Assembly (NCBI GenBank): GCA_009692555.1
Contig: SHYY01000004.1
Location: 17,901-81,900 of the forward strand
Source: Myxococcales bacterium
GTDB lineage: Bacteria > Myxococcota_A > Polyangia > Palsa-1104 > SHYY01
Direction: 5' to 3'
Length of the DNA stretch: 64,000 nucleotides
Of the stretch, positions 1-16,223 are shown piece after piece; the stretch's first letter is position 1; each line of letters starts with the position of its first letter. The position numbers and the translations under genes are program-made. The notes beneath the pieces were generated by a model, which was given only the letters and a program-made list of their open reading frames with translations, was not told the DNA's origin and made no database searches.

Positions 1-809
1 CGGCCGGGTGGGCAGTCCGCCGCCTTCAGGCAGCCGCACGCGCCAGCGATGAGACAGACCGGACCGTCGCCGCTCTTGGCGCAGTCGACGCATGCCCCGC
101 CCGCGACCGCGCACGCGCCGTCGCCGACCGCGGCGCACTGGTTTTGTGCACTGCAGCAGAAGCCCTTGGCGCACACGCCGGGCTGGCCGACGCCGCCGGC
201 GACGCAGGAGGCGGTGCAGGCCCCTCCCGCGCAGGTGGGCGTGGCGCCGCCGCAGGGAGCACACACCCCGCCGTTGGTACCGCACGCTCCGTTCTCGTTG
301 CCGCCGCGGCAGGTGGCGCCGTCGCAGCAGCCGCCGTTGCACAGGAGCGCGCCGGCGCAGGCCTGCGAGCACACGGCGCTCTTGGGATCGCACGCGCTTC
401 CCTTCGGGCAGTCCGCGGGTCCGGCGCAGCCGCATTTCTTTGCGACGCACGCGGAGCCGCCGCTGTTGCCGGTGCAGTCCTGGCACGCGCCCGGTGCGCC
501 GCAGCTTTGCGGTGTGCCTTCGCACGCCGGCAGCGCGAGGTCGGCCGCGCCGTCGGACGACGCAGCGTCCGCGGCGATCAGTCCATCGACGGAGAGGGCG
601 TCCTCACCTTCCGCGGAGTCCACCACCGCCAGATCCGGGTCGGCCGGGCCCTGATCGAGGAGCACCCCATCGAAGGCCGGCGCGCGATCGGCAGACGGCA
701 GCGCGGCGAGGTCGGCCGGGGCGGCATCCGCGGTGGCAACAGGAGGCTCCTCGCCGCACCCGACGAGTGCGACGACCACCCACGGCAGCGCCCACAGCTT
801 GAGGTTCAT
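1..809 (-). CDS. Cys-rich repeat lipoprotein, C-terminus truncated by window edge (paralog 1 of 3)
   Basis: Minus-strand frame from ATG at 809: MNLKLWALPWVVVALVGCGEEPPVATADAAPADL (lipobox VALVGC), then CNGGCC/CGC-type Cys modules matching the next two genes; frame is open to the window edge, so it is absent from the ORF track. Confidence 0.8.
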   Translation of the reverse strand, partial: MNLKLWALPWVVVALVGCGEEPPVATADAAPADLAALPSADRAPAFDGVLLDQGPADPDLAVVDSAEGEDALSVDGLIAADAASSDGAADLALPACEGTPQSCGAPGACQDCTGNSGGSACVAKKCGCAGPADCPKGSACDPKSAVCSQACAGALLCNGGCCDGATCRGGNENGACGTNGGVCAPCGGATPTCAGGACTASCVAGGVGQPGVCAKGFCCSAQNQCAAVGDGACAVAGGACVDCAKSGDGPVCLIAGACGCLKAADCPPG

Positions 810-933
810 CCGGATGCGCCTCTTGCCGACGCTCGCGAGACATGCCGAGCGGCAGAGGCGACGGTAGCATACGCTGCCGTGCGTTAGAAGCGGTGCCGAG
901 CGGGAAGAGGGGTTGGAGCGGAAGGAGAGAAGG

Positions 934-968
934 AGGAACCGGGCGCCGGCGATACCGACGCCCGGTTC
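934..968 (-). terminator. GC-rich hairpin downstream of Cys-rich paralog 2
   Basis: GAACCGGGCG...CGCCCGGTTC 10-bp stem directly after the 977 stop codon. Confidence 0.5.
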
Positions 969-976
969 TCGCTACA

Positions 977-3874
977 TCAGTTGCAGAGGCCGTTCGCGAA
1001 CATGAGGTTCGCGCAGCAGCCGGCCGCCGTCTGAGCGGTCTGGCCCTTGGTGGCGCAGATGCAGTTGAAGGAATTGGCGGCGCCGACGTGATTGGAGCAG
1101 CAGGCGCGCGGCTCGGCACCAAGGCCGAAGTTCGTTTTTGTGCCGTTCGGGAGGCACTGGCAGGTGCCATTGCCGGCGACGGAGAGCGAGCAGCAGTTCC
1201 ACGGATTGGCCGGCGCTCCGGCGTTCACCCCGTTGAGGTTGCAGGTGCAGGTGCCATTGACATCCATGCCGGTGCAGCAGGCGTTGCCGACTCCCTTCAG
1301 GTTGTAGATACCCGGGACGCAGCAGACGTTGGTGGCGAGGTTGCAGCCTGCGCGGAAGGCGTTCGGGTTCACGAAGCAGGAGTTGGCGGTGTTGCACGAA
1401 AGGGTGCCGCCGTCGAGGTTGGCGATGGTGCAGCCGCACGAGCCGTTCTGCGCGTTGCACTTCGGGCCGGCGTTGCAGGTGTCGAGGCAGCTATTGCACT
1501 GACCGCCGCTGACGCCGCACGCGTTGTCGGCGACGCCCGGACGGCAGGTGCCGCCGAGGCAGCAGCCGCCGTTGCAGCCACCCGCCGCCGCGCCGGCGTA
1601 GCCGCAGGCGTTGGTGCAGGTGCTGCTGTTGGTGTCGCAGGTCTGACCCGCCTGGTTGCCGGCGGCCGCGAAGCACTCGGACTTCTGGGTGCAGCCGCAC
1701 GACCAGTTGTTGTTGACCGGGACGAGGCACTTCTTGCCCGTCGAGGCGTTGCCGCACTTGAGGCAGGCACCCGTGTAGCCGCAGGTGGCGTCCGCCTTGC
1801 CGCCGACGCACTTGCCGGCGGAGCAGCAGTTGCCGCCGCCGCACACGCCGTTGGCGAGCGCACCGCACGCCGAGGTGCAGACCCCGGCGGTGCAGGTCGG
1901 GGTCGCGCTAGCGCCCGGCTTGCAGTCGAGGCAGGCGCCGCCAACGCCGCCGCAGGCGGTGTTCGAGCTGCCGACCGCGCAGGTGCCGCCGCTGCAGCAG
2001 CCGCCGTTGCACAGCTGGTTCGCGGTGCAGACGTTGGTGCAGAGCTTCTTCACGGTGTCGCAGGCCTGGAGGGCGCCGCAGTCCGACGACTTGTTGCAGC
2101 CGCAGCTCGTGCCGTTGATGCACGCGTGGCCACCGACGTTCGCCGAGCAGTCGACGCAGGCGTTGGCCGCGCCGCAGGCGGTGGGGGCATTGCCGGCGAG
2201 GCACTGGCCATTCACCGCGGCCGAGCAGCAGCCGCCGTTGCAGGCCTGCTGCGCGTTGCAGGCCACGACGCAGAGGTGCGACACGACGTTGCAGGCGAAG
2301 CCCACCGCGCAGTCGGCTGCCTTGTCGCAGCCGCAGGCGTTGTTGTTCATCGCCCCAGGACGGCAGAGGTGCCCGGCGTTGTTGGTCGTGCAATCGACGC
2401 AGGCGGCCATCCCGGTGATGAGGCAGGCGGCAGCCACGGTGCCGTTCGAGCAGGCACCGTTACCGCCGCAGCAGCCGAACTGGCACTTGTTGTTGGCGTC
2501 GCACTTGTTGTTGCAGACCTTGTTCACGCAGCCGGTGCTGGAGATCGGGCAGTCGGCCGGGAAGGCCGCGCAGCCGCAGACGCCGCCGTTGCCCAAGGCC
2601 ACGCACACCTTGCCGTTCGGGTTGCCGGTGCAGTCGGCGCAGAGGCCGCCGTTGTTGCCGCACTGCTTGTTGGTTCCCTCGATGCCCTTCTGGCAGGTCC
2701 CGTTGACGGCGGCCGAGCAGCAGCCACCGTTGCACAGGTTGTTGGCGTCGCACTTGTTGGTGCAGACGTTGGTCACGGCGTCGCAGGAGAAGCCGACGGC
2801 GCAGTCCGCCGCGACCTTGCAGCCGCAGAAGGTCTTGGCGTTGATGGTGAGGCAGGCGGTGCCCATCGCGTTGGCGACGCAGGTGCCGCACGCCGCCATG
2901 CCGAGGGCGCACGAGGCCTGCAGGTTGCCGGCGAGGCACTTCTTGTTCGCGACGTCGCAGCAGCCGCCGTTGCACGGGGTGTTCATGTCGCACGCCGCGC
3001 CGCAGACGCCCGCGGTGCAGGCCTGGTTGGCGGCGCAATCGGCCGCCTTGGCGCAGCCGCAGGTGCCGTTCATCAGGCAGGTCGGACCGTTCGCGCTCTT
3101 GCTGCAGTCGTTGCAAGCGCCGCCGGCGAGGCCGCAGGCGCCGTTGCCGATCGCCGCGCACTGGTTCTTCGCATCGCAGCAGAAGCCCATCCCGCAGGCC
3201 GCGCCGCCCATGCCACCGATGACGCAGGTCGCGGTGCAGGCGCCAGCGGTGCAGGTCGGAGTGGCGCCGCCGCAGGCCGCGCAGGCCTTGCCGTCGCCGC
3301 CGCACTTGCCGTTGTCATTGCCGACGAGGCAGTTCGCGCCGTCGCAGCAGCCGCCGTTGCAGGCGAGACCGCCGGCGCAGGTCGGGTCGCACTGGCCGTT
3401 GGCCTGGCAGGCGAAGCCCTTCGGGCAGTCCGAGGAGCTGTTGCAGCCGCACTTGAGCGCAACGCAGGCCTGACCGCCCTGGTTGCCGGTGCAGTCCTGA
3501 CATGCCCCCGGGGCGCCGCAGCTCTGCTGCGTGTTGCCGCAGGGCATGACCGCGGGGCCATCGCCAGCGTCGCTTCCGCCGCCGCCGATGTCGTCGGTAC
3601 CACCGATGTCGTCGGTGGGGAGAATGGTCATGTCGGCCTCTACGACGACCGTCATGTCGTCGTCCTCAACGATCGTCATGTCGATCTCTGGGACGACGGT
3701 GAGGTCTTCCTTGACGCCGCCGCTGTCGACCTTGGGCTTTGCCAGGTCAGGCGTGGGGACCGGCGGCATTTCCGGATCTTCCGTCGTTTCGCAACCGACG
3801 CTCCCCAGTCCGGCCCCCAGGAGGGCCAGCGGGAGCACAATCCTGAGCGTCCACTTCGTTCCCATTTTTGCCAT
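977..3874 (-). CDS. Giant Cys-rich repeat lipoprotein (paralog 2 of 3)
   Basis: 965 aa; signal peptide plus lipobox (LGSVGC), Asp-rich linker, then tandem modules with CNGGCC, CGCxxxxDC and ACGxxGGxCxDC motifs. Confidence 0.85.
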   Translation of the reverse strand: MAKMGTKWTLRIVLPLALLGAGLGSVGCETTEDPEMPPVPTPDLAKPKVDSGGVKEDLTVVPEIDMTIVEDDDMTVVVEADMTILPTDDIGGTDDIGGGGSDAGDGPAVMPCGNTQQSCGAPGACQDCTGNQGGQACVALKCGCNSSSDCPKGFACQANGQCDPTCAGGLACNGGCCDGANCLVGNDNGKCGGDGKACAACGGATPTCTAGACTATCVIGGMGGAACGMGFCCDAKNQCAAIGNGACGLAGGACNDCSKSANGPTCLMNGTCGCAKAADCAANQACTAGVCGAACDMNTPCNGGCCDVANKKCLAGNLQASCALGMAACGTCVANAMGTACLTINAKTFCGCKVAADCAVGFSCDAVTNVCTNKCDANNLCNGGCCSAAVNGTCQKGIEGTNKQCGNNGGLCADCTGNPNGKVCVALGNGGVCGCAAFPADCPISSTGCVNKVCNNKCDANNKCQFGCCGGNGACSNGTVAAACLITGMAACVDCTTNNAGHLCRPGAMNNNACGCDKAADCAVGFACNVVSHLCVVACNAQQACNGGCCSAAVNGQCLAGNAPTACGAANACVDCSANVGGHACINGTSCGCNKSSDCGALQACDTVKKLCTNVCTANQLCNGGCCSGGTCAVGSSNTACGGVGGACLDCKPGASATPTCTAGVCTSACGALANGVCGGGNCCSAGKCVGGKADATCGYTGACLKCGNASTGKKCLVPVNNNWSCGCTQKSECFAAAGNQAGQTCDTNSSTCTNACGYAGAAAGGCNGGCCLGGTCRPGVADNACGVSGGQCNSCLDTCNAGPKCNAQNGSCGCTIANLDGGTLSCNTANSCFVNPNAFRAGCNLATNVCCVPGIYNLKGVGNACCTGMDVNGTCTCNLNGVNAGAPANPWNCCSLSVAGNGTCQCLPNGTKTNFGLGAEPRACCSNHVGAANSFNCICATKGQTAQTAAGCCANLMFANGLCN

Positions 3875-3931
3875 CGTCCAGCCTCCAAGAATACGTTAGG
3901 TTCAGCAGTGTCGGGGACGGTAGCACGCAGG

Positions 3932-3955
3932 GCTTCCAGGATGGAAGCTTTTTTT
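3932..3955 (+). terminator. Intrinsic terminator pointing against the flanking genes
   Basis: GCTTCCA-GGA-TGGAAGC stem followed by T7 on the plus strand. Confidence 0.7.
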
Positions 3956-3996
3956 GAAGGGGAAATGGTGGTGCGGGAGAGGGGGGAAGGAAGCGG

Positions 3997-4025
3997 CTGG
4001 GCGCCGGCGTCGTACCGGCGCCCAG
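3997..4025 (-). terminator. GC-rich hairpin downstream of Cys-rich paralog 3
   Basis: CTGGGCGCCGG-CGTCGTA-CCGGCGCCCAG, 11-bp perfect stem; related in sequence to the hairpin at 934-968. Confidence 0.5.
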
Positions 4026-4042
4026 TCGCGGGGATCAGAGAG

Positions 4043-6907
4043 CTACGGCGTGCAGGTGAGCGGGCCGTTGTTCATGGAGGGCTTGCAGGTGAGGCCCATC
4101 GCGCAGCCGGCCGTGGTGAGGCAGGTCTGGTTCAGGATCGCCGCCACGCAGTTGCCGCCGCTCAGGAGGCTGCAGCGGAGCGAGCAGCAGCTGGTGTTCT
4201 GACCACTTAAGCCGCAGCCACCCGGCGACATTCCGTTCGGGATGCAGATGCAGGCGTTGTTGTTCTGGACCTGCGTGCAGCAGGCCGAGGCGTTGCCGCC
4301 CGAGGGCTGGCTGACCGCGATGCAGGTGCAGTTGCCACCCATCGTCATCGCGCCGCTGCAGCAGGCCGCTGCCATGCCGCCGCTCGGACGGACCTGGAGG
4401 GCCGTCGTCGCGATGCAGCACGAGCCACCGACGATGACCGTGTTGCAGCCGTTGCGCTGGCCGCAGGCCATGCCGCCCTGAGCGCACTGGGTGGAAGCGG
4501 TGCAGCCGCACGACCCGTTCGCCGCGTTGCAGGCCGGGCCCGGGTTGCAGGCCGTGCCGCAGTTGTTGCACTGGCCGCCGGCGACGCCGCAAGCGTTGTT
4601 CTGATTTCCCGGACGGCAGGTGCCGCCGAGGCAGCAGCCGCCATTGCACCCGGTCGCGCCCATGTAGCCGCAGCTGTCGGTGCAGGTCTTGGCGGCGGTG
4701 TCGCAGGTCTGACCCGCCATGTTGAGGGCGGCCTTCGAGCAGTCGGCCGCCGCGGAGCATCCGCACACCGACTTCATGCCGGTCGTGATGCAGACGTGAC
4801 CGGTCGACGCGCTGGTGCAGTCTGCGCAGGTGTTGGTGTAGCCACAGGTGCTGTTGGCCTTCCCGCCGACGCACTTGCCGGCAGAGCAGCAGTTGCCACC
4901 GCCACACGTGCCGTGGCCGAGATCACCGCAGGCCGAGGTGCAGACGCCGGCGGTGCAGGTCGGGGTCGCGCTTGTGCCCGAGTTGCAGTTGGTGCAAGCG
5001 CCGCCCGCCGCGCCGCAGGCGCTGTTCGAGGAGCCGGCCGCGCAGGTGCCGCCCGAGCAGCAGCCACCCTTGCAGAGCTGGTTGGCGTTGCAGACGTTGG
5101 TGCACTGGTGGCTGACCGTGTTGCAGGCCTGGAGGTCGCTGCAGTCGGCGCTGACGTTGCAGCCGCAGGCCAGGCCGCCGATGCACGCGTGGCCGACCTG
5201 CGCGTTGGCGCAACTGACGCACGCCACCGCGGTTCCGCAGGCGGTCGGGGCGTTGCCCGGGACGCACGAGCCGGCGTTGCAGCAGCCGCCGTTGCAGGCC
5301 TGCTGGGCGCTGCACTGGGTCACGCAGAGGTGCGTGGTGATGTTGCACGCGAAGCCGACCGCGCAGTCGGCCGCCTTGTCGCAGCCGCATGCGTTGCTGC
5401 CGTTGCCGACCGGGCGGCAGTAATGGCCCGCGTTGTTGTTCGAGCAATCGACGCAGGCCGCCATGCCCGCGATGAGGCAGGCCGCGGTGGCGCTGCCGTT
5501 CGCGCAGGCGCCGTTGCCGCCGCAGCAGCCGAACTGGCACTTGTTGTTGACGTCGCACTTGTTGTTGCAGACCTTGTTCACGCAGCCGGTGCTCGAGATC
5601 GGGCAATCGCCGGGGAAGGCGGCGCAGCCGCACACACCGCCGTTGCCGGAGGCCACGCACACCTTGCCGATCGGGTTCCCTGCGCAATCGGCGCAGAGGC
5701 CGCCGTTGTTGCCGCACACCTTGCTGGTGCCCTCGATGCCCTTCTGGCAGGTTCCGGCCACCGCCAGGGAGCAGCAGCCGCCGTTGCAGAGGTTGTTCGA
5801 GTCGCACTTGGTGGTGCAGGTGTTGGTGACGGTGTCGCACGCGAAGCCGACGGCGCAGTCCGCCGCGACCTTGCATCCGCAGAACGTCTTCATTGCGACG
5901 GTGAGGCAGGCGGTGCCCATCGCGTTGGCCACGCAGGTGCCGCAGGCCGCCATGCCGAGGGCGCAGCCGGCCTGGACGTCACCGAGGCTGCACTTCTTGT
6001 TGGCCACATCGCAGCAGCCGCCGTTGCACGCGGTGTTCGCGTCGCAGGCGGTGCCACAGACGCCGTTGGTGCAGGCCTGGTTGACGGCGCAGTCGGCCGC
6101 CTTGGCGCAACCGCAGGTGCCATTCATGAGACAGGTCGGGCCGTTCGCGCTCTTGCTGCAGTCGGTGCAGGCACCGGCAGCGACGCCGCAGGCGCCGTTG
6201 GCGATCGCCGCGCACTGATTCATCGCGTTGCAGCAGAAGCCCATGCCGCACGCGCCACCGCCCATGCCACCGACGGCGCAGGCCGTGGTGCAGGCGCCAG
6301 CCGAGCAGCTCGGGGTGCCGGCGCCGCAGGCCGCACAGGCCTTGCCGTCACCGCCGCACTTGCCGTTGTCGTTGCCGGAGAGGCAGTTCGCGCCATCGCA
6401 GCAGCCGCCGTTGCAGGCGAGGCCGCCGGCGCAGGTCGCGTCGCACTGGCCGTTGGCCTGGCAGGCGAAGCCCTTCGGGCAATCCGCCGCGCTGTTGCAG
6501 CCGCACTTCAGGGCGACGCAGGCCTGACCGCCCTGGTTGCCGGTGCAGTCCATACAGGCGCCGATGGCGCCGCAGCTCTGCTGGGTGTTCAGGCAGTCGG
6601 GGCCGGGCTTGGCCATGTCGGGGTCGGGCCCATCGGTGCCGACCATGTCCTCCGTCACGATCGGTGCATCGTCGGTGGAGAGGTCGGCCCCCTCCATGGC
6701 GATGTCCGGCTCGTCCATCGAGATGTCGGGCTCCTCGACGAGGGCCATGTCCCTCTTCACCGAGAGGTCAGGCTTCGTCGTCACCGCGAGGTCGTTAGCG
6801 GGCGTACCACCATCCTCCGTGACGTCGTTGCCGCAACCGAGCAGCCCGGTGGCGGCACCGGTCAGACTCACCGTGAGAAATAAGCGCAACGTCCATTTCA
6901 GGGTCAT
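4043..6907 (-). CDS. Giant Cys-rich repeat lipoprotein (paralog 3 of 3)
   Basis: 954 aa; lipobox LLGCGND, acidic linker, same Cys module order as 977-3874. Confidence 0.85.
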   Translation of the reverse strand: MTLKWTLRLFLTVSLTGAATGLLGCGNDVTEDGGTPANDLAVTTKPDLSVKRDMALVEEPDISMDEPDIAMEGADLSTDDAPIVTEDMVGTDGPDPDMAKPGPDCLNTQQSCGAIGACMDCTGNQGGQACVALKCGCNSAADCPKGFACQANGQCDATCAGGLACNGGCCDGANCLSGNDNGKCGGDGKACAACGAGTPSCSAGACTTACAVGGMGGGACGMGFCCNAMNQCAAIANGACGVAAGACTDCSKSANGPTCLMNGTCGCAKAADCAVNQACTNGVCGTACDANTACNGGCCDVANKKCSLGDVQAGCALGMAACGTCVANAMGTACLTVAMKTFCGCKVAADCAVGFACDTVTNTCTTKCDSNNLCNGGCCSLAVAGTCQKGIEGTSKVCGNNGGLCADCAGNPIGKVCVASGNGGVCGCAAFPGDCPISSTGCVNKVCNNKCDVNNKCQFGCCGGNGACANGSATAACLIAGMAACVDCSNNNAGHYCRPVGNGSNACGCDKAADCAVGFACNITTHLCVTQCSAQQACNGGCCNAGSCVPGNAPTACGTAVACVSCANAQVGHACIGGLACGCNVSADCSDLQACNTVSHQCTNVCNANQLCKGGCCSGGTCAAGSSNSACGAAGGACTNCNSGTSATPTCTAGVCTSACGDLGHGTCGGGNCCSAGKCVGGKANSTCGYTNTCADCTSASTGHVCITTGMKSVCGCSAAADCSKAALNMAGQTCDTAAKTCTDSCGYMGATGCNGGCCLGGTCRPGNQNNACGVAGGQCNNCGTACNPGPACNAANGSCGCTASTQCAQGGMACGQRNGCNTVIVGGSCCIATTALQVRPSGGMAAACCSGAMTMGGNCTCIAVSQPSGGNASACCTQVQNNNACICIPNGMSPGGCGLSGQNTSCCSLRCSLLSGGNCVAAILNQTCLTTAGCAMGLTCKPSMNNGPLTCTP

Positions 6908-7006: not shown

Positions 7007-7170
7007 ACGCGCCTTATTGTGACAAATTGGCCGGGCGTTGACAAAACGGCACGATGGCGTAGCCTCGGGAACGATACGAGGAGGTCTGTGATGCAACTTA
7101 GTCGTTTATATTCAGTTAGTTGTTGTCGTGTTGACCGCTGGCGCGTGGTTCGCAGAGGAGCCCGGATCCA

Positions 7171-8604
7171 ATGAGCACTCCGACTCTGCTGGTGGTGGAC
7201 GATGAGCCCTCGAACCTCGAATCTCTGGTGCGGATCTTCGGCCGCGAGGGCATGAACGTCCTCGCCGCGCCCGATGGAAGGGAGGCGCTCGAGACCCTGC
7301 GCAAGCAGCGGATCGATGTGCTGCTGACCGATCTGATGATGCCCGGGATGACGGGCGTCGATCTCCTCAAGGCGGCGCGCGCGGTCGCGCCCGAGACCGA
7401 GGTGATCCTCATGACCGCCTACGGCACCGTCGAGACGGCGGTGGAGGCGATGAAGGAGGGGGCGTACGACTTCATCATCAAGCCGCTCAAGCGCGCTCAC
7501 GTCGTGCGGGTGGTGGCGAAGGCGCTCGAGAAGCAATCGCTGCTGGTCGAGAACCGCGCGCTCCGGGTGCAGCTCGACAACGTTCGACGGAAGCCGATCG
7601 TCGGGCAGTCGCTGGCGATGCGCCGCACGCTCGACATGGTGACCCAGGCCGCCCCGTCGGTGGCGACGGTGCTCCTGCTCGGCGAGTCGGGCACCGGGAA
7701 GGAGCTGCTGGCGCGGCAGGTCCACGATCTCTCGCCGCGCGCGGGGAGACCGTTCGTGCCGGTCAACTGCGCGGCGATCCCGGAGTCGATCCTCGAGGCG
7801 GAGCTGTTCGGCTACGAGAAGGGGGCGTTCACCGGCGCGGTCACGCGGCGCGACGGACGCTTCGCACACGCCGACGGCGGGACCCTGTTCCTCGACGAGA
7901 TCGGGGAGATCGCACCGTCGGTCCAGGTGAAGCTCCTCCGCGTACTGCAGGAGGGGGAGATCGAGCGGCTCGGCGGCAAGTCGCAGAAGATCGATATCCG
8001 CCTCGTCGCGGCGACCAACAAGGATCTCAAGCGCGCGGTGGCCGAGGGGCGCTTCCGGGAAGATCTCTACTACCGCCTCAACGTGATCGCGGTGACCGTG
8101 CCGCCGTTGCGCGACCGCAGCGATGACATCCCGCTGCTGGTGGATCACTTCCTCACCCGCTTCCGGGAGAAGAACCAGAAGACGCTGTCGGGCTGCACGC
8201 GCGCGGCGATCGAGGCGCTGTGCGACTACGGCTGGCCGGGCAACGTGCGCGAGCTCGAGAACGCGATCGAGCGGGCGGTCGTGCTCACCAAGTCGAGCAC
8301 CATCGACGTCGATGATCTCCCGCGTGAGGTGTTCGCCGAGCACACCGGCGAGCCGCCCCTGCGCGGCGCGGGCGCAGCCGGCCGGGCACTCTCCTTCGAG
8401 ATCGGAACGCCGCTCGAGGAGATCGAGCGCCGCGTGATCCACGAGACGCTCAAGCAGACCCGCGGGGACAAGCGCCTCGCCGCCCAGCTCCTCGGGATCT
8501 CCACGCGCACGATCTACCGGATGCTCGATCGCGATCGGATCGAGGAGCGCGATCTCGACGAAGACGACCCGGCGGGCGGGAAATCCGCCGAAGCGCACGA
8601 ATAG
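7171..8604 (+). CDS. NtrC-family sigma54-dependent response regulator
   Basis: REC domain (VDDEPS...LLTDLMMPGMTG), AAA+ domain ([21 protein letters not shown]), C-terminal Fis-type HTH. Confidence 0.95.
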   Translation: MSTPTLLVVDDEPSNLESLVRIFGREGMNVLAAPDGREALETLRKQRIDVLLTDLMMPGMTGVDLLKAARAVAPETEVILMTAYGTVETAVEAMKEGAYDFIIKPLKRAHVVRVVAKALEKQSLLVENRALRVQLDNVRRKPIVGQSLAMRRTLDMVTQAAPSVATVLLLGESGTGKELLARQVHDLSPRAGRPFVPVNCAAIPESILEAELFGYEKGAFTGAVTRRDGRFAHADGGTLFLDEIGEIAPSVQVKLLRVLQEGEIERLGGKSQKIDIRLVAATNKDLKRAVAEGRFREDLYYRLNVIAVTVPPLRDRSDDIPLLVDHFLTRFREKNQKTLSGCTRAAIEALCDYGWPGNVRELENAIERAVVLTKSSTIDVDDLPREVFAEHTGEPPLRGAGAAGRALSFEIGTPLEEIERRVIHETLKQTRGDKRLAAQLLGISTRTIYRMLDRDRIEERDLDEDDPAGGKSAEAHE

Positions 8605-8719: not shown

Positions 8720-8735
8720 TGGCACCTCGGTTGCT
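8720..8735 (+). promoter_or_regulatory. Sigma54 (-24/-12) promoter upstream of gspC
   Basis: TGGCACCTCGGTTGCT matches TGGCAC-N5-TTGCW; the -12 GC is about 25 nt before the gspC ATG. Confidence 0.75.
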
Positions 8736-8758: not shown

Positions 8759-9715
8759 ATGGACGTCCTCCTCAAGAAATATTTCTGGATCCTCACCCTC
8801 GGGGTGACCGGGGTCTGTGCCGCCCTCGGCGGGCGCACCGCATCGCGCTTCATCACCCAGTCGTTCCTGGTCGCCGACGAGAGCCAGGCACCATCGCGCC
8901 GGGCCTACGTCAACAGCGCCGACCGGGTGCGCTCGAAGGAGGTCGAGGGGATCGTCAAGCGCAACGTCTTCTGCTCGGCCTGCTCGCCGATCGTCCCGTC
9001 GGGCGATAACCCGGCGGGGCCCGTGGAGGAGATCTCCAACGAGCCGCGGCGCACCGAGATGCAGCTCGAGCTGGTCTCGACGATGGTGGTGCCGGGCGAC
9101 GAGAAATGGTCGATGGCGGTGATCCGCGACACCTCGACCAAGGAAAAGGATCCGGGCCTCTATCGCAGCGGCTCGCTGCTCCCGGGCGACGCGGCGACGG
9201 TCGTGCGGATCATCGAGAAGAAGGTCTACTTCACCAACAACAATCACCTCGAGTACCTCGAGCTCGATCCGGGCGCGAACGCCAAGGTGGCCAACGCGGG
9301 CGGCGGCAACGAGTACGTCGCGATGGCCCAGCCGGTGTCCGCAGCGACGGGAGATCCGCTCGACAACGACATCAACCGCGGCGTGCGCTGCGTGGGATCG
9401 AACTGCGAGATCGACCGCTCCCTGGTCGACAAGCTGCTCTCCAACACCACCATGCTCGCCACCTCGGCGCGCTTCGTCCCGTCGATCAAGGACGGGCGCC
9501 CGAACGGCTTCAAGCTCTACGCGATCCGCCCGAACTCCATCTTCGGGAAGATCGGCCTCCAGAACGGCGACACGGTGAAATCGATCAACGGGATGGAGAT
9601 GTCGAGCCCCGACCAGGCGCTCGGCGTGTACACCAAGGTCCGCACGGCCAGCCACCTCACCGTCTCGGTGGAGCGGCGCGGCGAGACCGCCACGCTGGAC
9701 TACACGATCCGATGA
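8759..9715 (+). CDS. gspC: Type II secretion system protein GspC
   Basis: N-terminal TM segment, PDZ-like C-terminus (NSIFGKIGLQNGDTVKSINGMEM), first gene before the secretin. Confidence 0.85.
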   Translation: MDVLLKKYFWILTLGVTGVCAALGGRTASRFITQSFLVADESQAPSRRAYVNSADRVRSKEVEGIVKRNVFCSACSPIVPSGDNPAGPVEEISNEPRRTEMQLELVSTMVVPGDEKWSMAVIRDTSTKEKDPGLYRSGSLLPGDAATVVRIIEKKVYFTNNNHLEYLELDPGANAKVANAGGGNEYVAMAQPVSAATGDPLDNDINRGVRCVGSNCEIDRSLVDKLLSNTTMLATSARFVPSIKDGRPNGFKLYAIRPNSIFGKIGLQNGDTVKSINGMEMSSPDQALGVYTKVRTASHLTVSVERRGETATLDYTIR

Positions 9716-9761
9716 CGCGCACGCCAGCAGGTCAGGCGTGGGGCGACACGATGAGGCCTCG

Positions 9762-12631
9762 ATGAAATTGATCCGGTGGGTAGTGCCGCTCTCCGCTGCC
9801 GCGCTCACGCTGACGCCGTGCGTGTTCGCGCAGCCGCGCATCACCGCCCCGGCGGCCGCCAAGCCCCCGCCCGCGGCGACGGGACGGCCGACCTCGCTCG
9901 CACCGCTTGCCGCGGCGACGGGCAAGGGCGCATCGGGAGCGGCCGCGAGGACGCCCCCGGCCATGACGACGACCGGAACCGGCAAGCCCGCGCCGTTAGC
10001 CAAGCCTCCCGCCACCAGCCGCCCCCCGAGCAGCCTCCAGAATGGCCAGCCACCGTCGGGAAACCCCGATCCCGGCTTCGGCATCGGACCGGGCATCGGC
10101 GCGGGTGGCGCCAACTTCCCCGAGGGAATGCCCGCCGAGAAGGCGATCGCCACCGAGTGCAAGGACAAGATCCCGCCCAACAAGAAGTTCAAGATCGACT
10201 TCCGCGGCGAGGTCGAGCTCTCGCAGCTCGTGCAGTGGCTCGCCCCGACGCTGTGCCGGCCGGTGATCGTGCCCCAGAACCTGCGCCAGCAGAAGGTGAC
10301 GATCTACTCGCCCGGCCTGGTGACCGCCGAGGAGGCGCAGCGCCTGTTCCTCGCGTCGCTGACCTCGATGGGCCTGACGGTGCAGCCCGAGGGCGGCAAG
10401 GGGCACGAGGTGTTCACGATCATCGAATCGAACCGCGCCCACGAGTTGCCGGTGCCGCTCTACGGGCCGGACGCGCAGGCCCCCTCCAGCTCCGCCTTCG
10501 TCACCAAGCTGATCCGGATGAAGAACATCACCACCGACGAGATCCTCCAGACGCTCAACCGCCTGAAGACCAAGGACGGCGACATCGTCGCCTTCGCGCC
10601 CGCCGGGACGCTGATCATCACCGACCTCTCCGAGAACATCCGGCGCATGGAGGCGATCATCAATCAGCTCGATGTGCAGCCGCTCGGCGCCGAGAAGATC
10701 TGGGTCCACAAGCTCCACAACACGGCCGCGTCGGAGATGGCGGCGATGCTGGAGAAGATCTTCCAGCCGAGCAAGGGGGCGGCCCAGCCGGGGGGGCGTC
10801 CCGGCGGGCGGGCGATGCACCTCGCGCAGTCGGTGACCAGTCCACCGGCGGTGACACCCGGCGCGGCGCCGGGATCGGCCACCGAGACCTCAGGGCCCGC
10901 GTTCGGCAGCGTCAGCGTCTCGCAGATCATCCCGGAAGATCGCTCGAACACCCTGATCATCGTCGCCAGCGACAAGGCCTTCTCGTTCATCCTCTCGCTC
11001 ATCCAGCGCCTCGACCAGGCCGGCGGCCCGCTCGACAACGCCGGCGATCGCATCCACGTCCACTTCCTCAACAACGCCACCGCCGATGAGATCGCCGCGA
11101 CGCTCTCCGGCCTCGGCGTCGGGGTCTCGGGCTCGCGCGGCCGCACCGGCGCGCGGGCGACCGGCGGTCCGGCGGGTGGAACGCCCGGCCAGGCGGGTGC
11201 GCTGTTCGAAGGCGAGGTCAAGGTCGCCGCCGACAAACCAACGAATTCGCTGGTGATTGTCGCCTCCGGGCGCGATTACCTCACGGTGCGCGACCTCGTC
11301 CGCAAGCTCGATATCACGCGCCGCCAGGTGTTCATCGAGGCCACCATCCTCGAGGTGTCGCTCGACAAGGCGCGCAAGCTCGGGGCGGCCTTCCACGGCG
11401 GCGGCACGGTCCTCGACGGCGACAACAAGTCGCTCCTCTTCGGCGGCTCGGAGCCGAACGGGCAGGCCAACTCGCTGTTCTTCTCCCCGGCGGCGCTGAC
11501 CGGCCTCGCCGCCGGCCTGCGCGGGCCCGCGATCCCGGGCGCCGATACGCTCCTCGGCCTCCCGCCCGGCCAGTCGGTGCCGAGCTTCGGGGTGTTCATC
11601 CAGGCGCTGCAGAACAACAACGACGTCAACGTCGTCTCGATGCCGCACATCCTCACCTCCGACAACGAGAAGGCCACCATCCAGGTCGGCCGCAACCTGC
11701 CTTTCCCGGGGTCGCTCGGCGGCTTCCCGGGCGCGGGGGGCGCTGCCGCGGGGGCTGCTGCCGCCTTCGGTATCGGCACGTCGGTGCAGCGGCAGGACGT
11801 GGCGCTGAAGATGGACGTCACCCCGCACGTCAACGACTCGGACATGGTGCGGCTCGAGCTGGACGCCGAGATCTCCGACGTGGCCTCGGAGAACTTCAAC
11901 GGCCTCGGCCCGGCCACCGACAAGCGCACGGTGAAGACCACGGTATCGGTGCGCGATCAGCAGTCGGTGGTGATCGGCGGCCTGGTGAAGGATCGCATCG
12001 CCGAGAGCATCGACAAGGTGCCGCTGCTCGGCGACATCCCGATCCTCGGCTACCTGTTCAAGTTCACCCGCAAGACCATCCTGAAGCAGAACCTGCTGAT
12101 CATCCTCACCCCCTACGTGATCAAGGATCCGATGGATCTGCGGCGGATCTTCGAGCGCAAGATCCGCGATCGCAAGGAGTTCCTCGAGCGCTACAGCGCC
12201 TTCCAGGATGAGCACAACTACGACCCCGAGATCGACTACCGCCGGAAGCGTGGCCTGCTCGAGGAGATCAATCGCACCGCCATCGAGGCCGAGCTGGAGG
12301 CCGCTGAGCTGCGCACCGCCCAGGCGTCGATGCAGGAGCGCTTCCAGGAGGGGCCGGTCGAGCCGGTGGACATCCCGCGCGGGCGGGGCGGCGCGCTGCG
12401 GCCGGGCGCAGGGGAGCGTATCAACGAGGACGAGTCGCCGGGCACGCAGCCAGTCCCGTCGCCGCCGTCGCCACGAGAACGTCCGGTGCGCCAGCGCCAG
12501 CGCGAGCGGATGGTCCCGAACGTCCCGCAGATGGAGGACAGCGTGCCGCCGCCGACCGGTGCGCCCGCGCTGCCCGAGTCGCCGCGGGGCGAGGCACCGG
12601 TGCCGCAGCCAGCGACGGCAGGAGACCGGTA

Positions 12632-12632
<1 letters not shown>
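9762..12632 (+). CDS. gspD: Type II secretion system secretin GspD
   Basis: N0/N1-type domains and secretin core (VPLLGDIPILGYLFKFT). Confidence 0.93.
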
Positions 12633-14506
<1,874 letters not shown>

Positions 14507-14512
14507 CGCCGG

Positions 14513-15784
14513 ATGCCGGTCTTTTCCTACAAGGGCTTCGCGGCGAGCGGCAAGCCGGTGTCGGGCGTCAAGGACGCCGACAACGTCCGCAATTTACGCG
14601 CAATCCTGAAGCGCGACGGGATCTTCCTCACCACCGCCAAGGAGGCCAACCTGCGCGCCGCCGCCGCCGAGGCCGCGGGCGACACCGGGATCGGGATCCT
14701 GCGGATCTTCACCGGCCTCTCGCCGGGCGGGCTCACCGCGGGCCGGCAGAACGCGGACAAGCGACAGGTGGCGATCCTCACCCGCCAGCTCGGCGTGCTC
14801 TTGAAGGCCGGCGTGCCGCTCTCGGAGGCGCTCGGCGCGCTGGTCGAGCAGTCGGAGCGCCCCGCGCTGAAGCGCATCCTCGCCGACGTGAAGACCCAGG
14901 TGAACGAGGGATCGTCGCTGGCCGACGCTCTGGCCCGCCACCCCGGCTCGTTCGAGGACCTCTTCATCAACATGGTCCGCGCCGGCGAGGCCTCGGGCAA
15001 CCTCGACACCGTGCTCTTCCGCCTCGCCGAGTTCCTCGACGCGCAGAACCGCCTGCGCGGGAAGATCATCTCGGCGATGTTCTACCCGGTGGCGATGGCC
15101 TGCATCGGCATCGTGATCATGGGCATCCTGATGCTCACCGTCGTGCCGAAGGTCACCTCGATGTTCGCCGACACCGGGCAGGTGCTGCCCTGGAACACCC
15201 GCCTGATGATCTTCGTCTCCGACATGATCGGCGGCTACTGGTACCTGATCATCGCCTGGGTCTTCGGGTCGGTGATCGGCTTCCGCTACTGGAAGAAGAC
15301 GCCGCGCGGGCGCATGACCTTCGACAGGATGATCCTCCGCCTGTGGGTGATAGGACCCCTGGCGCGGATGATCGCGATCAGCCGCTTCGCGAAGACCCTC
15401 TCGACGATGCTGGCCTCGGGCGTGCCGCTCCTCCGCGCGCTCGACATCGTGAAGAACATCCTCGGCAACGTCACCCTCACCAAGGTGATCGAGGAGGCCA
15501 AGGAGTCGATCAAGGAGGGCGAGTCGATCGCCGCGCCGCTGCGCCGCTCGGGGGAATTTCCGCCCATCGTGACGCATATGATTGCGGTGGGTGAGCGCAC
15601 CGGGCAGCTCGAGCCGATGCTGGAGAACGTCGCCGAGTCGTACGACGTCGAGACCGACATGAAGATCGCGCGGCTCACCACCCTGCTCGAGCCGGTGATG
15701 ATCCTGATCATGGGCGGCTCGGTGGCGTTTGTGGTGTTTTCGATCTTGTTGCCGATTTTGCAGATGAACGAGTTTGTGTCCTGA
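14513..15784 (+). CDS. gspF: Type II secretion inner-membrane protein GspF
   Basis: T2SF domains, LTRQLGVLLKAGVPLSEAL. Confidence 0.93.
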   Translation: MPVFSYKGFAASGKPVSGVKDADNVRNLRAILKRDGIFLTTAKEANLRAAAAEAAGDTGIGILRIFTGLSPGGLTAGRQNADKRQVAILTRQLGVLLKAGVPLSEALGALVEQSERPALKRILADVKTQVNEGSSLADALARHPGSFEDLFINMVRAGEASGNLDTVLFRLAEFLDAQNRLRGKIISAMFYPVAMACIGIVIMGILMLTVVPKVTSMFADTGQVLPWNTRLMIFVSDMIGGYWYLIIAWVFGSVIGFRYWKKTPRGRMTFDRMILRLWVIGPLARMIAISRFAKTLSTMLASGVPLLRALDIVKNILGNVTLTKVIEEAKESIKEGESIAAPLRRSGEFPPIVTHMIAVGERTGQLEPMLENVAESYDVETDMKIARLTTLLEPVMILIMGGSVAFVVFSILLPILQMNEFVS

Positions 15785-15803
15785 ACCCAGCCGAAGGAGT
15801 CGG

Positions 15804-16223
15804 ATGATGCGGCCAAGCAGCAAGCGAAGGATCACCCAGCGCGGCATGACTCTCGTCGAGATCATGGTCGTGGTGGCGATCATCGGGACCGTGATGGCGG
15901 CGGTGGCGCTGGGCGCCCTCCCTGCGCTCAACCGGGCCACCTGCAAGACGGCGTGGACGGGAACGCAGACCCTCGCCCAGGCGGTGGAGGTCTACAAGAC
16001 CGAAAACAACGGCGACTGCCCGAAGTCGCTCGACGACCTGGCCCAGATGAAGATCGTCAAGAAGATCCCGATCGACCCGTGGGGCCAGCCCTTCAACTTC
16101 AAGTGCCCCGGCGACAAGGACGAGGACGGCGCCGACATCTGGTCGAAGGGCAAGAACAAGCAGGACGGCGACGACGACGATGTCCGCGGCTGGATGAAGA
16201 TGGACGAGCAGTGCAAGAAGTAG
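15804..16223 (+). CDS. gspG: Major pseudopilin GspG
   Basis: RG|MTLVEIMVVVAIIG prepilin motif; YKTENNGDCP...IPIDPWGQPF. Confidence 0.93.
   Translation: MMRPSSKRRITQRGMTLVEIMVVVAIIGTVMAAVALGALPALNRATCKTAWTGTQTLAQAVEVYKTENNGDCPKSLDDLAQMKIVKKIPIDPWGQPFNFKCPGDKDEDGADIWSKGKNKQDGDDDDVRGWMKMDEQCKK

Follow-up and report, generated by a model that had tools for sequence, protein, structure and literature searches.

What are the giant cysteine-rich proteins encoded side by side with a type II secretion system (T2SS) operon in a Myxococcales bacterium, and would that operon have any part in their function? The question arises from the window, i.e., the whole stretch of 64,000 nucleotides that was analyzed (contig C273, bases 17901-81900, from a genome that is 80% complete). 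A sequence-only reading had described its first part as a tandem array of three repeat lipoproteins, either disulfide-rich or metal-binding, and had taken the adjacent T2SS and sigma54 regulator as a hint of co-function or cargo.

Organization of the Array

Paralog A (954 aa; 4043..6907, minus strand) is a complete gene with the lipobox LLGC, and paralog B (965 aa; 977..3874, minus strand), likewise complete and of the same architecture, has the lipobox SVGC. The window edge at base 1 cuts through the array, and of paralog C only the 5′ third of the gene, encoding the first 269 amino acids, lies inside (1..809, minus strand). Beyond the edge, C is completed to 908 aa (L004:15983-18709, minus strand), and paralog D (948 aa; L004:13042-15885) comes next, outside the window. 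The tandem row described earlier is thus upheld, with two complete genes and one cut, while the number of three is not; once the contig is extended, the array comprises at least four members, namely the full-length paralogs A-D. A, B, and C each contain 15-16% Cys. The GC content of D at the three codon positions (0.54/0.63/0.94) identifies it as a real gene, despite the long antisense ORFs that are present. On the far side of A, the neighbors outside the array are, as had been read from the sequence, an AtoC-like response regulator with a sigma54-interaction domain (7171..8604, plus strand) and the type II secretion genes gspC, gspD, gspE, gspF, and gspG (8759..16223, plus strand), whose operon runs further.

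Protein E (L004:7478-12127) follows D outside the window. It resembles A-D in being giant, in having tandem Cys repeats, and in sharing the locus, but it is a different Cys-repeat/FG-GAP protein, in which about 21 repeats of the type C-x-DGVKNGxETDxDCGG, each of about 49 aa, are followed by FG-GAP repeats at the end. Kinship between this repeat and the module of A-D was rejected (hhalign probability 3%). When the adjoining 110 bases are included, a lipoprotein-like signal peptide is found in another frame than the repeats, which points to a misassembly or else to a broken 5′ end.

Protein Architecture and Cysteine Pattern

Seven full copies were compared, namely A-D, copies F and G, which lie in one apparent operon on contig C113 of the same genome, and copy H of a sister species of the same genus. 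Each begins with a signal peptide and lipobox, after which come an acidic tether, a Cys head, eight modules (M1-M8), and a Cys-rich tail; in A, these parts correspond to residues 1-25, 26-104, 105-164, 165-753, and from 754 onwards, respectively. The number of Cys residues in M1-M8 is 10, 14, 14, 14, 14, 14, 10, and 14, in identical order in 7/7 copies, which extends the shared module order previously noticed and found again here in A, B, and the window part of C. The last block, consisting of a module start and the tail, has 29-33 Cys. The modules, of about 55-90 aa each, are joined directly to one another, and the motifs CNGGCC, CGCxxxxDC, and ACGxxGGxCxDC that had been reported for them were all recovered. 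Of the "divergent acidic linkers," acidity and divergence were borne out and the plural was not: there is a single Asp-rich tether of 47-103 aa with a net charge of -10 to -23, located between the lipobox and the Cys domain, the latter being near neutral in 6/7 copies. Since the xxGC lipobox closes a hydrophobic stretch in 7/7 copies, the proteins qualify, by N-terminal signal and lipobox cysteine, as predicted bacterial lipoproteins, with lipidation at that residue being likewise predicted. The haem motif CXXCH, of which the earlier reading had noticed none, has a count of zero across all seven copies, by which membership among the multihaem cytochromes is ruled out.

The Cys count after the lipobox is even in 7/7 copies and close to 146 each, with 148 in A, 146 in B, 144 in C, 146 in D, 146 in F, 148 in G, and 144 in H (146 in total, of which the signal peptide and the lipobox account for one each). 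An even number fits complete pairing; the copies being related to one another, it counts in favor of pairing without proving it. The genome gave about a dozen DsbA-like hits, with a cluster of several on contig C162, and VKOR was not found in this 80%-complete assembly. A single module is modeled by AlphaFold as all-beta with short strands (pLDDT 70). Foldseek returned no significant fold match for this model (all E above 2); the weak top neighbors are mostly disulfide-rich proteins and include squash trypsin inhibitors and Dkk4. The full-length model has a pLDDT of 49, with recurring surer blocks around CGC...CNGGCC, and at this low confidence a rod and a folded-up globule would both fit. Taken together, the lipobox, the even Cys count in seven copies, and the all-beta module model support the view of disulfide-rich, lipid-anchored repeat proteins that had been put forward from the letters of the DNA.

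Pairwise identity among A-D is 49-67% over 850-980 residues. When the six copies from this genome are aligned, 141 columns hold Cys without exception, while non-Cys identity drops to 34-66%. Same-position modules of different paralogs share a non-Cys identity of 0.42, compared with 0.26-0.27 for modules of different position, from which it follows that the module order predates the gene duplications. The acidic tether is the fastest-diverging part, with A and B being 49-56% identical at the nucleotide level in this region versus 79-92% in the N-terminal half of the Cys domain. Ka/Ks is uninformative, since synonymous sites look saturated (pS plateaus near 0.4 at a GC3 of about 0.94).

Family Identity and Distribution

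That the proteins belong to no recognized named family was corroborated by searches of Pfam, NCBIfam (up to E=10), and PDB sequences, which gave no match save four chance-level module hits, the best of them to Dumpy DPY (E=0.1). As Cys-rich repeat lipoproteins of the surface, the array proteins belong to a kind already known from Myxococcota, within which they form a real, well-defined, and undescribed family. The genome itself has an unusually rich repertoire of Cys-rich proteins, including 120 Stig1 (PF04885) hits on many contigs, about 70 of which are above cut-off on their own.

Full-length copies occur in at least 2 of the 58 genomes searched, both of the window's own genus, the module (E<=1e-6) in at least 4 of 290 genomes of the class, and head-M1-M2 (E<=1e-10) in at least 4 of 379 genomes of the phylum; these counts are lower bounds, candidates having been scored only in part per genome. 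The named genomes scanned with the full-length family yielded no match. In the sister species, the intact copy H is accompanied by a fragment ending at a contig end and by a hybrid lipoprotein (L063:3740-5275), in which Stig1-like repeats are followed by modules of the array family; this hybrid represents module shuffling between Cys-rich families. The neighbors of the other copies are FG-GAP and VWD proteins on C113 and another Cys-rich lipoprotein in the sister species. Among outside relatives, the clearest case is a 395-aa lipoprotein from another family of the class (contig C405 of genome G194; L064:8859-10046). Like the array proteins, it has a lipobox, a low-complexity Asp-containing tether, and head, M1, and M2 in this order; unlike them, it contains only about three modules, and no tandem expansion was seen. 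The shared head-M1-M2 order suggests a short ancestor from which the long form was built up, and the occurrence of such a shorter relative in another family of the class makes the array family new but not isolated.

Transcription Signals

A perfect sigma54 -24/-12 promoter, TGGCACCTCGGTTGCT (8720..8735, plus strand), is located 39 bases before gspC. It is the sole match of at least 10/11 in 81.9 kb, and the four closest relatives have retained it with 9-11 matches, at -36 to -41 before gspC. As judged from this promoter motif, the sigma54 response regulator encoded beside the T2SS probably controls this system in the group. Upstream of A-H, sigma54 sites reach background scores only. Instead, A is preceded by a sigma70-like promoter (TTGTCA-17-CACAAT with a TG before the second hexamer; 7016..7044, minus strand), and the extended -10-like box TGCTACCGT is found 51 nt before the start of B (3917..3925, minus strand) and 60 nt before that of C (861..869, minus strand). 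B, C, D, F, and H all have TGNTANNNT at a distance of 32-60 bases ahead of their start, compared with a background rate of 12 in 1162 stretches (1%). GC-rich hairpins without a U tract lie just 3′ of the stop codons of A (3993..4029, minus strand) and B (936..968, minus strand), each with -33 kcal/mol for an 80-nt stretch, and are probable transcription stops. With their own sigma70-like boxes and hairpins and no sigma54 site, the array genes are probably separate sigma70-type units outside the sigma54 regulon.

The Neighborhood of the Secretion Operon

The nearest named relatives of the T2SS are found in the Myxococcota MAGs nzgw251, palsa_1104, CRAIB_MAG117, and SKYG55, in all of which, as in the window, an AtoC-like regulator is encoded upstream of gspC. 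An array copy was seen in none of eight related T2SS loci, where the sequence preceding gspC is limited to 2.4-3 kb in two of the named contigs and the T2SS contig of the sister species begins inside gspD; the AtoC-gspCDEFG block is kept in relatives that lack the array. In palsa_1104, a protein-kinase-like gene fills the slot of the array between histidine kinase and regulator, and the flank genes from the far side of the array keep their order at a distance of a few kilobases to the regulator (identities of 72% for the aldehyde dehydrogenase, 57% for the BMC-domain protein, and 59% for the histidine kinase). This order would most simply mean that the array entered, or expanded in, an older neighborhood.

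Two further observations concern these loci. Aldehyde dehydrogenase and a BMC shell protein beside a large histidine kinase (L004:1541-4254, L085:1-2014) are conserved near the T2SS in two genomes. In nzgw251 (L081:1-337), the gene divergent from the T2SS regulator encodes a lipoprotein with a PDLSMPDL-type tether and without a Cys-rich domain in the sequenced part, the contig ending within the gene.

Alternative Explanations

According to the explanation most directly raised by the map, the array proteins would be dedicated cargo or accessories of the T2SS, with both forming one functional locus under the sigma54 regulator. The array does adjoin the only gsp-type secretin locus of the genome; however, this adjacency holds for 1 of 6 family loci, no gsp genes being found near the other five (C113 of the same genome; C438, C78, and C354 of the sister species; C405 of G194), so that homologs are mostly without a neighboring T2SS. 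The MYXO-CTERM tag routes myxobacterial proteins through the T2SS; none of the seven array-family members gave an NCBIfam hit for it (TIGR03901) at E<=10, while 23 tagged proteins are encoded elsewhere in the same genome. A parallel is offered by the kin-recognition receptor TraA of Myxococcus, a surface protein with Cys-rich repeats (described in a passage of PMC13184517) which, in passages of PMC13184517 and PMC12288465 that cite Sah et al. 2020, reaches the myxobacterial surface through the T2SS. By analogy with TraA, the T2SS could carry array proteins to the surface as well. TraA, however, combines a variable ligand domain with a MYXO-CTERM tag at its C-terminus and is T2SS-routed, whereas A-D have an N-terminal lipobox, no recognized domain, and no such tag. 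Together with a T2SS block and regulator that persist without the array, the unchanged gene order in palsa_1104, and a sigma54 promoter at gspC only, these findings speak against the suggested co-function and make dedicated cargo unlikely; co-regulation of the array with the T2SS by sigma54 was rejected on promoter evidence and synteny. From the gene maps, the array seems to lie beside the operon by a one-time positional accident.

A surface protein that binds or stores metal, with free thiols for Cu, Zn, Hg, or Fe-S clusters, would agree with 144-148 Cys per protein, including about 10 CXXC and 13-14 CC, but there are few His (4-11 per protein), the Cys follow the regular pattern of a beta-module and do not cluster in the manner of metallothioneins, the array proteins gave no match to metallothionein profiles of Pfam, and export leads to an oxidizing compartment in an organism with many DsbA-like proteins; this function is considered quite unlikely. 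Arrays of knottin-like binding or inhibitory modules, i.e., protease-inhibitor-like or antagonist polyproteins that the surface displays or releases, are called to mind by C-terminal CxxGxxCCSxxCxxGxC-like motifs with their cystine-knot-like spacing and by the squash trypsin inhibitors and Dkk4 among the fold matches. As these knottin matches span about 20 residues at E values above 2, no processing sites were noticed, and the fixed block architecture points to one structural unit, such arrays are held to be very unlikely. Least probable is membership in the Stig1-like repertoire, for which the abundance of Stig1 hits in the genome and the hybrid lipoprotein of the sister species could be quoted. 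Stig1-domain proteins of Myxococcota do resemble A-D in that Cys-rich repeats occur in lipoproteins encoded by these genomes, but the 14-Cys array module of about 74-91 aa has a different spacing, A-D, F, and G gave no Stig1 hit even at E=10, and hhalign of the module against PF04885 revealed no similarity (probability below 1%), whereby Stig1 family membership is rejected at the sequence level.

Proposed Function

On balance, and with the observed architecture, fixed cysteine pattern, lipobox, promoter-like elements of their own, and absence of conserved linkage taken together, we favor lineage-specific, tandemly expanded disulfide rods that would be anchored in the outer membrane, encoded by separate sigma70-type units, and without functional tie to the T2SS. 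Each protein would be exported by Sec and lipidated at the lipobox cysteine. The flexible acidic tether of 47-103 aa would raise the module string and the Cys-rich tail off the membrane, the string consisting of small disulfide-bonded beta modules with 10 or 14 Cys each; lipobox, tether, and beta-module string would fit an outer-membrane-anchored stalk. Periplasmic DsbA-type oxidases would pair all cysteines, giving a stiff, protease-resistant rod, and fast-changing loops between the fixed cysteines would provide the paralogs with differing surfaces for adhesion, recognition, or coating. A role in adhesion, in recognition, or as a protective coat would agree with the predicted location, the repeat structure, and neighbors such as FG-GAP, VWD, and other Cys-rich proteins. 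The T2SS would at most be shared, as it may be by any surface protein. A bolder version, which we regard as possible though rather doubtful, sees here a new class of bacterial extracellular rod with up to 74 disulfides per chain, eight modules in fixed series, and a new 14-Cys (truncated 10-Cys) beta fold, whose paralogs with diverging loops would form a lineage-specific recognition or armor coat.

For secretion biology the result is a negative one. It shows that a place next to a secretion operon is no ground for calling a protein cargo. For the uncultured Myxococcota, about whose surface proteins very little has been learned, it adds an unnamed protein family with a countable prediction, namely 72-74 disulfides, no free thiol, and a fixed module series; the disulfide fold, if truly new, would be of interest to protein engineers, too.
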